DNA of 64,000 nucleotides from Burkholderiales bacterium 39-55-53 (GTDB lineage Bacteria > Pseudomonadota > Gammaproteobacteria > Burkholderiales > Burkholderiaceae_C): NCBI GenBank assembly GCA_002282445.1, contig NCJK01000001.1, positions 496,001 to 560,000 of the forward strand. The letters run 5' to 3'. Under the pieces are notes generated by a model. That model did no database searches, was not told the origin of the DNA, and was given only the letters and a program-made list of their open reading frames with translations. Made by a program: the position numbers and the translations under genes. Positions 1,112 through 60,676 of this stretch are shown one piece after another (positions within the stretch are counted from its first letter, which is position 1; each line of letters starts with the position of its first letter).

Positions 1112-1165
1112 GTAGCGTCTTTTTCTTCTTTGGCGTTAGACGGCTCACGCATCTTGGGCGCCTTG

Positions 1166-1220
1166 TTACGCTCATGTCCCCCGAGAGGCGCTGTGCGCCT
1201 CTCTCCTCCTTGACTTCGCT
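1166..1220 (+). repeat. palindromic repeat, copy 1 (direct orientation)
   Basis: This is a 55-nt element made of a 17-nt flank (TTACGCTCATGTCCCCC), a 21-nt hairpin at 1183-1203 (arms GAGAGGCGC and GCGCCTCTC, loop TGT) and a second 17-nt flank (TCCTCCTTGACTTCGCT). An inverted copy lies at 1374-1428. The flanks are identical between copies, but the hairpin arms differ at five positions, each compensated on the opposite arm. It sits between convergent genes, which is typical of REP-like elements. No transposase or RAYT gene is in the window. Confidence 0.85.
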
Positions 1221-1351
1221 TCACAAGACACCCAAGCTGCATGAGCCTTTGGGTTTGCACACGAAAGTCTGGCAGCAGCGACTTCTGCAATGAGCAGTGG
1301 ATTCTGTTGCTAGCAAAGCCAAAGGCGAGCAAGCGTCTTCGTGAGCGAAGA

Positions 1352-56040: not shown

Positions 56041-58977
56041 TTAGATTTTAAAACCAGCGGGATGGGCAAGCTGACCGCCGGCTGTCACCGACACAGCGCA
56101 GTATTTCAGCTCTGGAATCTTGCCAAATGGGTCAAGCGCAGGGTTGGTCAGCAAGTTGGCAGCAGCCTCTTGGTAGGCGAATGGGATGAACACCGACCCT
56201 TCTGGCGTGCCCTCGTCCAAACGCACACGCAGGCTCAAGTGGCCACGGCGCGAGGCCACGGTGATGACATCGCCCGCTTGCACACCCAAGGCTTGCAAAT
56301 CTACGCCACACATCGAGGCGGTGGGCATGGGCTCAATAGCATCCAACACCGTGGCGCGGCGCGTCATGCTGCCCGTGTGCCAATGCTCCAGCTGTCGGCC
56401 TGTGATCAGCACAAACGGGTATTGCACATCAGGCTGTTCGTTGGCGGGTATCAAACCTGCAGGCATCAAGTTCACACGGCCATCGTCGGTGGCGAAGTGC
56501 TCTTTGAACACGGTGGGCTCGCCTGGGCCGTCTTCGGTGTGGCAGGGGTAAGTCACGCTGCTTTCGCGCTGCAAGCGTTCCCATGTGATGCCGCCAATGG
56601 CTGCATGCATGGCTTGACGCATTTCTTCGTACACCTCGGCCACGCCGTGGTGCTCGCCTGCATAGTGCCAACTGAGGCCCATGCGTTGTGCGATTTGCTG
56701 AATGATCCACAAATCAGCACGTGCATCACCCGGTGGGTCGATGGCTTGCAAACCGAGTTGCACCATGCGGTCGGTGTTGCTGACCGTGCCTGTTTTCTCG
56801 GGCCATGCCGTGGCGGGCAACACCACATCGGCGAGCCACGCGGTTTCGGTCATGAAGATGTCTTGCACCACCAAATGTTCTAGCGTGGCCAAAGCATGAC
56901 GCGCGTGGTTCAAGTTCGGGTCGCTCATCGCTGGGTTCTCGCCCATGATGTACATGCCACGAATCTTGTGCGGGTCGGTCTCGTCGGCCAAGATCTTTCC
57001 CATGATTTCCACCACGGTGTAACCGGGCTTGTCGTCCAGCGGCGTGTCCCAAAACTTTTCAAACCACGCATGTGCATCGGCATGGATGACGCGTTGGTAG
57101 TTGGGGTACATCATCGGAATGAGGCCCGCATCGCTCGCGCCCTGCACGTTGTTTTGGCCGCGCAGTGGGTGCAGGCCCGAGCCCGGCTTGCCCACTTGAC
57201 CCGTGATGGACGACAAAGCAATCAAGCAGCGCACGTTGTCTGTGCCGTGCACGTGCTGGCTCACACCCATGCCCCACAAAATCATCGCGCTGTTGGCGGT
57301 GGCGTAGGCTCGCGCCACCTCGCGCAGCGTGTGGGCGTCGATGCCGCAAATAGGGGCCATCGCCTCGGGGCTGAAGTCTTTGACGTTGGCCTTGAGCGCG
57401 TCGAAGTTGTTGGCGCGGTTGCGAATGAACGCTTCGTCCACCAAGCCTTCTTCGATGATGACGTGCAGCATCGCGTTAAGCATGGCCACATCGGTGTCCG
57501 CCTTGAAGTGCAGCGCACGCCAAGCGTGTTTGCCAAGGTCTGTGCCACGCGGGTCGGCCACCACAATCTTGGCCCCGCGCTTGGCCGCGTTCTTCATCCA
57601 TGTGGCCGCCACGGGGTGGTTGGATGTGGGGTTGGAGCCAATGACAAAAATAAAGTCAGAGTGCTCCACATCATTCACTTGGTTGGTCACCGAGCCCGAG
57701 CCCACACCTTCGAGCAAGCCTGCCACACTAGACGCATGGCACAAACGTGTGCAATGGTCGACGTTGTTCGAGCCAAAGCCCGTGCGCACCAACTTTTGGA
57801 ACAAATACGCTTCTTCGTTGCTGCCCTTGGCCGAGCCAAAACCCGCCAGTGCTTTTTTGCCGTGCGTATCACGCAGGTGTTTGAGCTTGGACGCGGCCAG
57901 ATCAAGCGCTTCTTCCCATGTGGCTTCGCGAAACACTTGCGACCAATCAGCCGCGTTGATGTTGAGCGCGTTCAATGCTTCTGGGTCTTTGGGCACGCCT
58001 GCTTTGCGAATCAGCGGCACGGTCAAGCGTTGCGGGTTGTGGATGTAGTCAAACCCGAAGCGCCCTTTCACGCACAAGCGGCTGTGGTTCGCTGGGCCGT
58101 CTCGCCCGTCCACGCTGACAATTTGGTTGTCCTTCACGTTGTAGGTGAGCAAGCAGCCCACACCGCAGAACGGACACACCGAATCCACCTTCTTATCGAC
58201 AACTTGTGAACCGACTTGCGTCTTAGGCATCAACGCGCCCGTGGGGCAAGCCTGCACACATTCGCCACACGCCACGCAACTGCTCAGGCCCATGGGGTCG
58301 TTCAAATCAAACACGATTTGAGAATGCGCACCACGATTGGCATAGCCAATCACATCGTTGACTTGTTCTTCACGGCACGCACGCACACAGCGGTTGCACT
58401 GAATACACGCATCTAAGTTCACCGCCATCGCGGGGTGTGACACATCACTGGTGGGTTGCTCGCGGCGCAGTGCACGTAACTCTGGGCGCACAGTCACACC
58501 CATGCGCGCAGCCCACTCACTCAGTTCACCATGCTCACCCACACCCGCTGCGATGGGGGATCCGCCGGGCAACGATTTTGGCTCGCCGCATGAGGCGCCC
58601 GGCGTATCCCCCGTCGCAGCAGCGAGAGAAGAAGCCGAAGAAGCATCGTTCCACTTGTGTCCAACATCTGGCATATCCGACAGCAACATTTCAAGAACCA
58701 TCTTTTGGCTCTTCACCGCACGGTCACTCACCAACACCTCCAGCCCAGCCGTCGCCGTGCGACAGCAGCTAGGGGCCAAGGTACGTTCGCCTTTGATCTC
58801 GACCACACACGCACGGCAGTTGCCGTCGGCACGCAAACCATCGGTGTAGCAGAGGTGGGGAATGTCTACGCCGTTGCGTTGCGCGGCTTTGAGAATGCTC
58901 TCGCCTTCATACGCTTGAACAGCCTTGTCGTTGAGTTTGAACTCAACCGTGGGCAAGTTTTTCAAAGGTGCATTCAT
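56041..58977 (-). CDS. fdsA: formate dehydrogenase subunit alpha (NAD-dependent, molybdenum type)
   Basis: This 978-residue molybdoenzyme oxidises formate to CO2. It has an N-terminal 2Fe-2S domain (HLCYTDGLRADGNCRACVVEI), two 4Fe-4S clusters (CIQCNRCVRAC, CVACGECVQACP), a further 4Fe-4S site (CPFCGVGC) and the bis-MGD domain. The active-site Cys replaces selenocysteine in RLCHASSVAGLLEGVGSG. The ATG at 58977 gives MNAPLKNLPTVEFKLN. An insertion at residues about 112-148 is encoded by a palindrome (see separate entry). It lies 1 nt after the diaphorase gene. No fdhD, fdsD or molybdenum-cofactor gene is adjacent. Confidence 0.92.
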   Translation of the reverse strand: MNAPLKNLPTVEFKLNDKAVQAYEGESILKAAQRNGVDIPHLCYTDGLRADGNCRACVVEIKGERTLAPSCCRTATAGLEVLVSDRAVKSQKMVLEMLLSDMPDVGHKWNDASSASSLAAATGDTPGASCGEPKSLPGGSPIAAGVGEHGELSEWAARMGVTVRPELRALRREQPTSDVSHPAMAVNLDACIQCNRCVRACREEQVNDVIGYANRGAHSQIVFDLNDPMGLSSCVACGECVQACPTGALMPKTQVGSQVVDKKVDSVCPFCGVGCLLTYNVKDNQIVSVDGRDGPANHSRLCVKGRFGFDYIHNPQRLTVPLIRKAGVPKDPEALNALNINAADWSQVFREATWEEALDLAASKLKHLRDTHGKKALAGFGSAKGSNEEAYLFQKLVRTGFGSNNVDHCTRLCHASSVAGLLEGVGSGSVTNQVNDVEHSDFIFVIGSNPTSNHPVAATWMKNAAKRGAKIVVADPRGTDLGKHAWRALHFKADTDVAMLNAMLHVIIEEGLVDEAFIRNRANNFDALKANVKDFSPEAMAPICGIDAHTLREVARAYATANSAMILWGMGVSQHVHGTDNVRCLIALSSITGQVGKPGSGLHPLRGQNNVQGASDAGLIPMMYPNYQRVIHADAHAWFEKFWDTPLDDKPGYTVVEIMGKILADETDPHKIRGMYIMGENPAMSDPNLNHARHALATLEHLVVQDIFMTETAWLADVVLPATAWPEKTGTVSNTDRMVQLGLQAIDPPGDARADLWIIQQIAQRMGLSWHYAGEHHGVAEVYEEMRQAMHAAIGGITWERLQRESSVTYPCHTEDGPGEPTVFKEHFATDDGRVNLMPAGLIPANEQPDVQYPFVLITGRQLEHWHTGSMTRRATVLDAIEPMPTASMCGVDLQALGVQAGDVITVASRRGHLSLRVRLDEGTPEGSVFIPFAYQEAAANLLTNPALDPFGKIPELKYCAVSVTAGGQLAHPAGFKI
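58547..58620 (-). repeat. in-frame 24-nt-arm palindrome inside fdsA
   Basis: Arms at 58547-58570 and 58597-58620 are inverted complements with 22 of 24 matches, one of the two differences being a G-U wobble. The 26-nt centre is 58571-58596. On the coding strand it reads through as residues 120-144 (A-A-T-G-D ... P-I-A-A) with no stop. It falls in a Gly/Ala/Ser/Pro-rich stretch between the N-terminal ferredoxin part and HGELSEWAARMG. It looks like a palindromic element that inserted and kept the frame. Confidence 0.8.
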
Positions 58978-58978
58978 C

Positions 58979-60676
58979 TCAAGCCACCTCGTGAGCGAAA
59001 TAGGTTTGCACACAACGCACAGGGTTGGGTGCTGCTTGGCCAAGGCCGCAAATGGAGGCATCGACCATCACTTGGTTCAAGTCTTCCAGCGTGGCGTTGT
59101 CCCACTGGGGTGCTTGCATGAGCTGCACCGCCTTGGCCGTGCCCACGCGGCACGGTGTGCATTGGCCACAGCTCTCGTGTGCAAAAAACTGCATGGCGTT
59201 CAACGCGGCATCGCGTGCGGTGTCGTGCTGGCTCAGCACCACCACGGCGGCAGAGCCGATGAAGCAGCCGTGTTCTTGCAAGGTGTCAAAGTCGAGTGGC
59301 ACGTTGTTCAGCCGTGCGGGCAAGATGCCGCCCGATGCACCGCCGGGCAAATAGGCATACAGCGTGTGCCCGTCCAACATGCCACCGCAATACTCGCCAA
59401 TCAAAGCCTGCACTGTGATGCCAGCGGGCGCTAGCTTGACGCCCGGCTTCTTAACGCGGCCACTCACACTGAAACTGCGCAAACCTATGCGGCCATTGGC
59501 CCCAAAGCTGGTGAACCACTGCGGGCCTTTTTGCACGATGTCGCGCACCCAGTACAGAGTTTCAAAATTGTGTTCGAGTGTGGGTTTGCCAAACAAACCC
59601 ACTTGCGCAATGTAGGGCGGGCGCATGCGTGGCTCGCCGCGTTTGCCTTCGATGCTCTCGATCATGGCGGACTCTTCACCACACACATACGCACCCGCGC
59701 CTCGGCGCAGTTCGATGTGCGGCAGTGGGCAAGGCGGGTTGGCTTGCAAGGCAGCCAGCTCGTATTGCAACAGATCGCGGCAGCCGTGGTACTCGTCACG
59801 CAGGTAGATGTAAATGGCTTCAATACCCACCACTTGCGCGGCCACCAACATGCCTTCTAAAAAGCGATGCGGGTCACGCTCTAGATACGTGCGGTCTTTG
59901 AATGTGCCGGGCTCGCCCTCGTCAATGTTGACGGCCATCACACGCGGTGCAGTTTGCTCACGCACGATGCGCCACTTGCGCCCTGCCGGAAAACCCGCCC
60001 CGCCCAAGCCGCGCAGGCCCGAGGCTTCCATGGCTTTCAGCACATCGTCTGTTTGGGTTTCACCTTTGGCCAAAGTCGCCACCAAGGCATAGCCACCATC
60101 GGCGACATAAGCATCTAAATCCACATAGTCGGGCAATGCTTGCTGTGTATCGCCCGCACTGACTGCGGCCAACACGCGCTCTGTTGAGGCGTGCGGCACA
60201 GCGTTTTGGTGCACCACAGCCACAGGCGCTTGTTCGCAGCGGCCCACGCAGGGCGCGCTGATCACGCGCACGTCAGCGCCCAAGAGGCTGGGCAACTTGG
60301 CCAACAGTTGTTTGGCCCCGCCCATCTCGCAACTCAAGCCATCGCACACGCGCACGGTCAGGGCGGCAGGCTGGGCGTCGTTGGGCAGCACCTCGAAGTG
60401 GTGATAGAACGTGGCCACCTCAAACACCTCGGCCATGGGCAAACGCATCTCATGCGCCAAGGCCACCAAGTGGCGCTCAAACAAACCACGATAGGTGTCG
60501 TTGAGCGCATGCAGGTGCTCAATCAACAAATCACGTCGATCAAACGCCGGCACCAAGGCCCGCACCTCTTGCAGCGACTGAGCATCGGGCTGCCGCCCCT
60601 TGAGATGGCTGATGCGGCGCAAGGTGTCGCGCATCTCATCAACGGTGCTGAGCGTGTGAGTGGACGTTGGATTCAT
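58979..60676 (-). CDS. NAD-dependent formate dehydrogenase, fused gamma/beta (diaphorase) subunit
   Basis: This 565-residue protein is a NuoE-NuoF-type fusion. Residues about 1-155 hold a NuoE-like 2Fe-2S domain (VCDGLSCEMGG, APCVGRCEQAP). Residues about 190-565 are NuoF-like with FMN/NADH motifs LRGLGGAGFPAGRKW and NIDEGEPGTFKDRTYL and a 4Fe-4S site ESCGQCTPCRVGT with a later Cys. It passes electrons from the alpha subunit to NAD. The ATG at 60676 is preferred because GGAG lies 10 nt before it, versus 1 nt for ATG 60685. In other fds systems these are separate fdsG and fdsB genes. Confidence 0.92.
   Translation of the reverse strand: MNPTSTHTLSTVDEMRDTLRRISHLKGRQPDAQSLQEVRALVPAFDRRDLLIEHLHALNDTYRGLFERHLVALAHEMRLPMAEVFEVATFYHHFEVLPNDAQPAALTVRVCDGLSCEMGGAKQLLAKLPSLLGADVRVISAPCVGRCEQAPVAVVHQNAVPHASTERVLAAVSAGDTQQALPDYVDLDAYVADGGYALVATLAKGETQTDDVLKAMEASGLRGLGGAGFPAGRKWRIVREQTAPRVMAVNIDEGEPGTFKDRTYLERDPHRFLEGMLVAAQVVGIEAIYIYLRDEYHGCRDLLQYELAALQANPPCPLPHIELRRGAGAYVCGEESAMIESIEGKRGEPRMRPPYIAQVGLFGKPTLEHNFETLYWVRDIVQKGPQWFTSFGANGRIGLRSFSVSGRVKKPGVKLAPAGITVQALIGEYCGGMLDGHTLYAYLPGGASGGILPARLNNVPLDFDTLQEHGCFIGSAAVVVLSQHDTARDAALNAMQFFAHESCGQCTPCRVGTAKAVQLMQAPQWDNATLEDLNQVMVDASICGLGQAAPNPVRCVQTYFAHEVA

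Follow-up and report, generated by a model that had tools for sequence, protein, structure and literature searches.

What is a near-perfect palindrome doing, in frame, inside a gene for formate dehydrogenase (FDH)? The question is raised by a 64,000-nt stretch of the genome of Burkholderiales bacterium 39-55-53 (contig NCJK01000001.1, positions 496,001 to 560,000 of the forward strand; hereafter the window), in which fdsA, the gene for the FDH alpha subunit, contains a 74-nt palindrome. Our analysis identifies this palindrome as one copy of a hairpin family of Comamonadaceae that is apparently undescribed. The family has a conserved centre and occurs at many loci, each with a private, covarying stem; pairing is kept on one element strand, where G.T is common and A.C rare, regardless of gene direction; a GYAG tag stands 5' of the element strand where a copy has the class I tail; inverted pairs occur; and in-frame copies are found in UvrA, LeuS, an HrpA-like protein and FdsA. 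We judge it rather probable that the family resembles repetitive extragenic palindromes (REPs), with long, freely varying stems and a conserved core, its folded single strand being recognised by a trans-acting factor.

The fdsA palindrome and the recurrence of its centre

A palindrome scan of the 64-kb window (24-nt arms, at most 4 mismatches, spacers of 3-60 nt) returned 11 overlapping hits at three places, and only the fdsA palindrome was found with as few as 2 mismatches, that is, with 22 of its 24 arm positions complementary. Five codon shuffles yielded no palindrome with 24-nt arms and at most 4 mismatches. The scan returned the coordinates 58547-58620, the 24-nt arms and the 26-nt centre given in a preliminary description of this DNA, whereas a general repeat search missed the palindrome because its arms share no 9-nt exact seed. 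Window positions 1142-1249 and 1347-1454 hold two more hits, whose 24-nt arms have 4 mismatches and are separated by spacers of 56-58 nt. The parts of the element and its host gene are as follows.

58547..58620, element strand (the window plus strand, antisense to fdsA): hairpin element, 74 nt, from the palindrome scan and a covariance model (CM)
58547..58570, plus strand: left arm, 24 nt, the outer 20 locus-specific and the inner GGGC shared
58567..58600, plus strand: conserved core, 34 nt, GGGC-AACGAT..TGAGGC-GCCC, delimited by its recurrence in other genes and genomes
58571..58596, plus strand: centre, 26 nt, with a possible purine-rich internal loop and a putative GGC-TC-GCC inner hairpin, as position counts suggest
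58597..58620, plus strand: right arm, 24 nt, from the palindrome scan
58540..58641, minus strand: DNA of FdsA residues 113-146, missing in the insert-free orthologues G011 and G041
56041..58977, minus strand: fdsA, FDH alpha subunit, the host gene, from its open reading frame (ORF) and NCBIfam TIGR01591

The fdsA ORF spans 56041-59061 on the minus strand with a likely start at 58977; counted from that start, the palindrome is in frame and encodes residues 120-144, in agreement with the preliminary description. The host protein scores 707.5 bits against TIGR01591 (cut-off 666.25), and the solved FDH alpha chain 7e5z aligns to FdsA residues 9-107 and 165-965, leaving the linker that holds the insert unaligned. 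That the insert in this linker is specific to a lineage, as had been suspected, was borne out by comparison of orthologues: 7 of 30 FdsA loci carry it, all in the window's genus (its own genome included), and 23 are without it. In G011 and G041 the FdsA matches abut across the insert (9-112 / 147-254 and 1-112 / 147-253, respectively). Outside the 30 loci the insert is also present in the genus genome G082 (L043) and on three further contigs, of which L070 and L128 are labelled Rhodoferax and L112 is labelled Burkholderiales. On a tree of 32 FdsA rows the insert requires four gains or losses. The insert-free linker of G047 (L156) resembles the left arm at about 13 of 17 positions by eye and may represent either the target or the scar of a deletion; the idea that the arms are copied from target DNA was dropped, as the insert-free linkers beyond G047 show no likeness by eye.

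Neither the 24-nt arm nor the whole palindrome has a second DNA copy in this genome, which excludes a mobile element with a repeated arm. The preliminary description had proposed counting genomic copies of the arm and had taken their absence to refute a mobile palindromic element; none exist, as found here, but the test misleads, giving a false negative because each locus has arms of its own and the centre alone recurs. When the element was compared with 149 relatives by BLAST, its central 40 nt also matched other genes, and a degenerate core pattern, run against 84,980 species genomes, matched 79 stretches. By our own extension, 73 of 89 distinct core-scan hits have arms of 4 to 28 pairs. These 73 bear the names Comamonadaceae, Burkholderiales, beta-proteobacterial or Limnohabitans/Rhodoferax/Hydrogenophaga, except L087 (Akkermansia) and L126 (Gammaproteobacteria). 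The 16 others, with chance-like arms of at most 2 pairs, were set aside; 15 are named outside Comamonadaceae and one (L125) within. L087, a contig of an Akkermansia-labelled metagenome-assembled genome, has a leuS hairpin like those of Limnohabitans and is probably a binning error. The cores sit on stems, most often of 20 or 21 further pairs, whose sequence varies by locus; across a set of 72 copies, drawn from L038-L148 with a requirement of at least 13 of 20 arm matches, pairing is 0.91 at the outermost of 20 pairs and 0.54, 0.41 and 0.46 just beyond.

A CM built from 45 ungapped copies (44 thinned from the 72, plus the window copy) found 11 copies in the window's genome, and an additional copy of that genome was seen in L210 at 47.8 bits. 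At E 0.001 it matched 35 of 84 genus genomes, with 0-16 matches per genome; at E 1e-6 it matched 35 of 299 family genomes (21 of 141 genera) and 2 of 300 order genomes, namely the window's own and G228, both of this family. These scans used strict filters, so that copies may have been missed.

Among the 72 core-scan copies, ORF clusters linked by BLASTP place 25 in UvrA and link 20 to LeuS and 4 to FdsA, the remainder lying in short or unassigned ORFs. The host names rest on representative proteins, L140 for UvrA and L095, L239 and L048 for LeuS, all above cut-offs. UvrA copies occupy several positions, four of them in the UvrA of L126 alone, and a single codon register is common to the copies in the long ORFs of UvrA, LeuS and FdsA. 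Two copies, L088 and L116 + (the latter one of 7 in long plus-strand ORFs), reflect read-through beside leuS and are not plainly inside the gene. Five genomes have a common copy in one ORF, whose L228 member is an HrpA match at 657 bits, below the 723-bit cut-off. Two UvrA-like ORFs appear to contain duplicated UvrA parts (L275 342-7331, 2329 aa; L276 727-7485, 2252 aa), and each has inverted hairpin pairs at three places. Carriage by a plasmid or phage is unsupported: the L215 composite had no match among plasmids, and the window element had none among phages.

Stems covary and pairing is kept on one strand

In the 45-copy alignment 96.6% of cells are paired, compared with 64.2% in shuffles, a percentage that is partly built in because the set required at least 13 of 20 arm matches. 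The both-sided changes, less affected by this requirement, occur at 21 of 24 pairs and in 324 cells against 93 in shuffles; the rows are related, and these shuffle counts are not probabilities. Sliding the partners along the alignment lowers pairing to 36-44%. The fdsA rows alone are 97.3% paired (92.5% in shuffles), with six pairs altered on both sides against 2.4 in shuffles (2 of 500 as high) and 13 such cells against 2.9, while a measure of further pair types did not rise above shuffles (134 of 500). Over 320 arm positions, 20 at each of 16 orthologous loci, 210 are invariant Watson-Crick pairs and 68 have at least two Watson-Crick types; 34 show nothing beyond Watson-Crick pairs and G.T on the element strand, 3 are invariant G.T and 5 include a transversion mismatch.

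We defined the element strand as the one reading RACGAT...TGAGG. Across the 72 core-scan copies the wobble cells comprise 130 G.T on the element strand and 14 on the other, beside 44 transversions. The ratio of element to other strand is 87:9 in long minus-strand ORFs, 9:0 in long plus-strand ORFs and 34:5 elsewhere. The core-scan pattern is blind to the arms and therefore cannot be the source of this asymmetry. The wobbles stand at 69:1 with 8 transversions, or 52:1 once repeats are merged, in 53 copies from 16 intergenic and hrpA-like loci, although this CM-found set could lean slightly toward the asymmetry. In flanking DNA the C/T and A/G differences are balanced (92 versus 99, counted pairwise among 4 genomes and thus not independent), and a mutational strand bias is therefore unlikely to lie behind the wobbles. 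RNA folding is stronger on the element strand in each of the 125 copies folded (53, 42, 7 and 23).

Beside the stem the core reads 5'-RACGAT on one side and 5'-TGAGGM on the other. The core-scan pattern fixed bases 26-30 and 45-49, so that only the CM-found set is informative there; among its 45 core/locus types from the 16 loci, 28.47 is G.A, 29.46 is A.G and 30.45 is T.T in all, 26.49 is A.G in 44, and 27-48 is C-G in 43 and T-A in 2. Position 25.50 is G.A in 43 of these types and A.C in 2; in 35 scan cores, where it was free as R and M, it is G.A in 21, A.C in 13 and A.A in 1. Judged by these pairings, the core may resemble tandem sheared G.A pairs around one base pair.

The preliminary description had suggested that a hairpin in the fdsA mRNA could slow the ribosome at a domain boundary. 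The linker that holds the insert does lie between domains. The gene runs antisense to the element strand, however, and the structure that is kept is therefore not that of the mRNA, on which the kept G.T pairs become A.C. The mRNA strand also folds more weakly, scoring 39.2 bits on the minus strand compared with 73.7 on the plus strand in CM R1 (the window copy is itself among the 45 rows behind this model) and -50.0 compared with -53.9 kcal/mol, and 23 of 30 FdsA loci do without the insert. We consider that ribosome slowing can practically be discounted.

Intergenic copies, the GYAG tag and the weighing of explanations

From 102 CM matches we listed 88 copies, after dropping repeated loci and matches that echoed a hairpin on its wrong strand. 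They include 26 inverted pairs, minus then plus, which are frequent between genes and spaced 32-152 nt apart in 25 cases and 271 nt in one. At their end, class I copies have GCGAGCYCAGCAAAA or a comparable tail, CGRGYTCAGCA; many others have tails around TCCGGCGAGAAA. Hairpin-free relatives at four intergenic loci (11 regions aligned of 20 fetched) have neighbour genes that nearly abut in most, L331 and L334 being hairpin-free yet not compact; blocks of roughly 130-350 nt, hairpins plus tails, were therefore gained or lost at the four loci. Of 52 intergenic hairpins, 48 have their 3' side within 120 nt of an ORF of at least 140 aa.

Several observations on arrangement stand apart. Hairpins lie in a row at steps near 174 nt in L229 273-1109, adjoining an ORF that begins MSTDTAELLQQHVIDPEVCIRCNTC, and in L107 2526-2773. 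Two hairpins on G385 contigs (L280 3806-3876 and L281 3779-3852) mark or nearly mark the contig ends, which fall at or a few bases from the hairpin as at an assembly break. Homogenisation of loops within genomes was hinted at by G042, where most copies read CTG-NNN-CAG, and by pair members; we rejected it, as the averages disagree, with a core distance of 0.09 for the same locus across genomes versus 0.16 within a genome.

Tag counts were made on 85 copies after repeats among the 88 had been merged. Of 49 copies with a class I tail, 45 have GYAG on the 5' side of the hairpin at a distance of 0-2 nt, read on the element strand (GTAG in five of them); the other strand has it in 0 of 49, and shifted positions in 2.2%. 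The 45 tagged copies comprise 27 with a GCGAGC/GCGCGC tail and 18 with a similar CGRG-type tail. A Y1_Tnp gene is present in 16 of 18 hairpin genomes, single in most. One such transposase-like ORF, at L299 1159-1866, has matches in 71 of 84 genus genomes and lies beside an ORF that we take to be gltB.

The element is a hairpin of about 72-83 nt (74 in fdsA) in which the core sits atop a stem of some 24 pairs, free to vary while it pairs. We propose that it is a long-stem relative of GTAG-type REP elements. A trans-acting factor would recognise the folded element strand through core plus tag, either an HUH/Y1 protein on single-stranded DNA or a factor acting at the RNA level; an HUH/Y1 transposase, the kind of enzyme that REPs use, would be the obvious candidate. 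Selection on the folded strand seems to maintain hairpins at fixed loci. The fdsA copy would be tolerated since its frame is open and its site is a variable linker that follows the 2Fe-2S domain, its peptide being a probable by-product.

Several results weigh against this REP-like proposal. Among the 11 fdsA rows, two A.C-type and four transversion cells depart from the wobble pattern, and the core is altered in G050 (T27), G048 (A46) and G009 (G25 with C50). A single origin and several origins of the insert are both compatible with the four-change FdsA tree, the data define no target-site duplication and show no movement, and they do not distinguish RNA from single-stranded DNA as the folded strand. 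The tag is missing at the fdsA copy and occurs in only 1 of 40 coding copies on each strand and in 1 of 36 class II or other copies. The Y1 gene is absent from 2 of 18 hairpin genomes, and at E 1e-30 it is found in 71 of the 84 genus genomes, hairpins in 35 of the 84, so that many carriers are hairpin-free; co-occurrence with a REP-associated tyrosine transposase (RAYT) was accordingly set aside as not discriminating. The fetched flanks of 19 Y1 loci contain no hairpin (best score 17 bits).

Function as RNA is the main alternative: copies that spread once would now be kept as RNA elements transcribed from the element strand, intergenic transcripts each meeting one sense hairpin just before the next gene, and in fdsA and most uvrA copies the hairpin acting on antisense transcripts through termination, cleavage or protein binding. 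The tolerance of G.U with A.C rare, the better folding of the element strand as RNA in every copy folded, the invariant and near-invariant core positions, and the 48 of 52 intergenic hairpins close to an ORF all agree with this. The element strand is not the fdsA mRNA, however, and an antisense transcript must be assumed there; the GYAG tag points to REP biology at the DNA level; and no Rfam family passed the gathering cut-off at six loci, where all 22 matches below it were generic microRNA precursors and none fell in L001, the fdsA copy. An intrinsic terminator was rejected, since L215 1300-2000, the sole composite scanned, has 0 terminator-like sites with a U-tract. We regard an RNA function as unlikely.

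A passive parasite could also keep its arms paired without any function if template switching in replication corrected the quasi-palindrome. Such correction would account for the 68 of 320 orthologous arm positions with at least two Watson-Crick types, to which wholly replaced arms add (for example, G042 at gpsA-I), and a precedent is discussed, in the part of the source available, for coding palindromes of nematomorph mitochondria (PMC6649704). It predicts mismatches blind to strand, whereas ratios of 52:1 and 130:14 were observed beside unbiased flanks, an asymmetry that argues against template switching unless the correction is itself strand-specific. We hold this explanation to be very unlikely. 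Selfish insertion of the kind known as Rickettsia palindromic elements (RPEs), now decaying, would fit a palindrome with in-frame intragenic and intergenic copies and with one codon register across the long UvrA, LeuS and FdsA ORFs; its arms are not conserved in sequence and yet stay paired at loci common to several species, and those of old, shared insertions remain complementary, which makes decay highly improbable.

Returning to the REP-like proposal, a bolder form would make these hairpins a class defined by fold and centre, with stems belonging to the locus, rewritten by paired changes and read on one strand, with a host function even where they lie antisense in core genes (fdsA, uvrA, leuS, hrpA-like), and with a single-strand-binding protein of their own, possibly a domesticated REP transposase. 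We advance this extension tentatively and put it somewhat short of an even chance. Sequence-based repeat finding easily overlooks elements with private stems, which a covariance search brings to light. With the strand-specific wobbles as a criterion, selection acting on a folded single strand can be distinguished from mRNA structure as well as from passive correction of palindromes, and the reported preference of palindromes for uvrA, helicase and tRNA synthetase genes becomes testable in cultured freshwater bacteria.

Comparison with known palindromic elements

No report of such elements in Comamonadaceae was found in the literature searched, which covered few subscription papers, in line with the preliminary description, whose author knew of none. 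The main text of the GTAG REP study of Di Nocera et al. (2013, PMC3733652) has no mention of rhodoferax, acidovorax, comamona or burkholderia. The wobble-strand test has general use, for coding palindromes as well as for REPs and RPEs.

The coding palindromes of nematomorph mitochondria are, in the excerpted account (PMC6649704), likewise inverted repeats in coding DNA whose arms stay complementary; they differ in encoding conserved protein regions, reaching 284 bp and being nearly perfect, whereas the Comamonadaceae hairpins have a shared centre, a variable linker as their site, tolerated G.T pairs and a strand bias.

The likeness to RPEs drawn in the preliminary description holds in one respect and fails in another. 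RPEs are described in the available part of a review (PMC2229807) as elements of 105-146 bp, compared with 74 nt in fdsA, that lie in frame in protein genes and between genes; the fdsA palindrome similarly adds an in-frame peptide to a conserved protein gene, and its relatives include intergenic copies. RPEs are said, in the portion of a second source at hand, to lose arm identity over time (PMC6649704). Here, at fdsA and 16 other loci, changes affect both arms and leave most of the pairing intact, and it is the centre rather than the arms that defines the family.

GTAG REPs, considered together with REP doublets forming hairpins (REPINs) and bacterial interspersed mosaic elements (BIMEs), are among the closest known systems. 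As far as the available portion of PMC3733652 describes them, the REPs are 20-40 bp long with stems of 5-13 bp, compared with 72-83 nt and about 24 pairs here. The Comamonadaceae hairpins differ from them further in their locus-private stems with a conserved centre, in reaching at most 16 copies per genus genome where REPs are high in copy number, and in lacking the tag in coding copies and hairpins beside the Y1 gene, the repeats that flank RAYT genes in REP systems being missing at all 19 Y1 loci. REPs are also mainly extragenic; of the core-scan copies here, 49 of 72 lie in long ORFs, a count that reflects a scan unable to match the 32-, 33- and 36-nt cores common between genes. Given the mismatch in length, stem, copy number and repeats next to the transposase gene, and the lack of a tag at the fdsA copy, we call the family REP-like and not REP. 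The likenesses, drawn from the same portion of PMC3733652, include a palindrome whose stem is preceded on its 5' side by a GTAG-like tag, here in copies with a class I tail, a tag that in REPs varies as GYAG and in some families is separated from the stem by a dinucleotide; G.T pairs in the stem; subfamilies with alternative complementary stem residues; inverted pairs; and intragenic copies in uvrA, at different sites, and in RNA helicase and tRNA synthetase genes. By analogy, the strand-biased wobbles would fit strand-specific recognition of folded single-stranded DNA, as in REPs.

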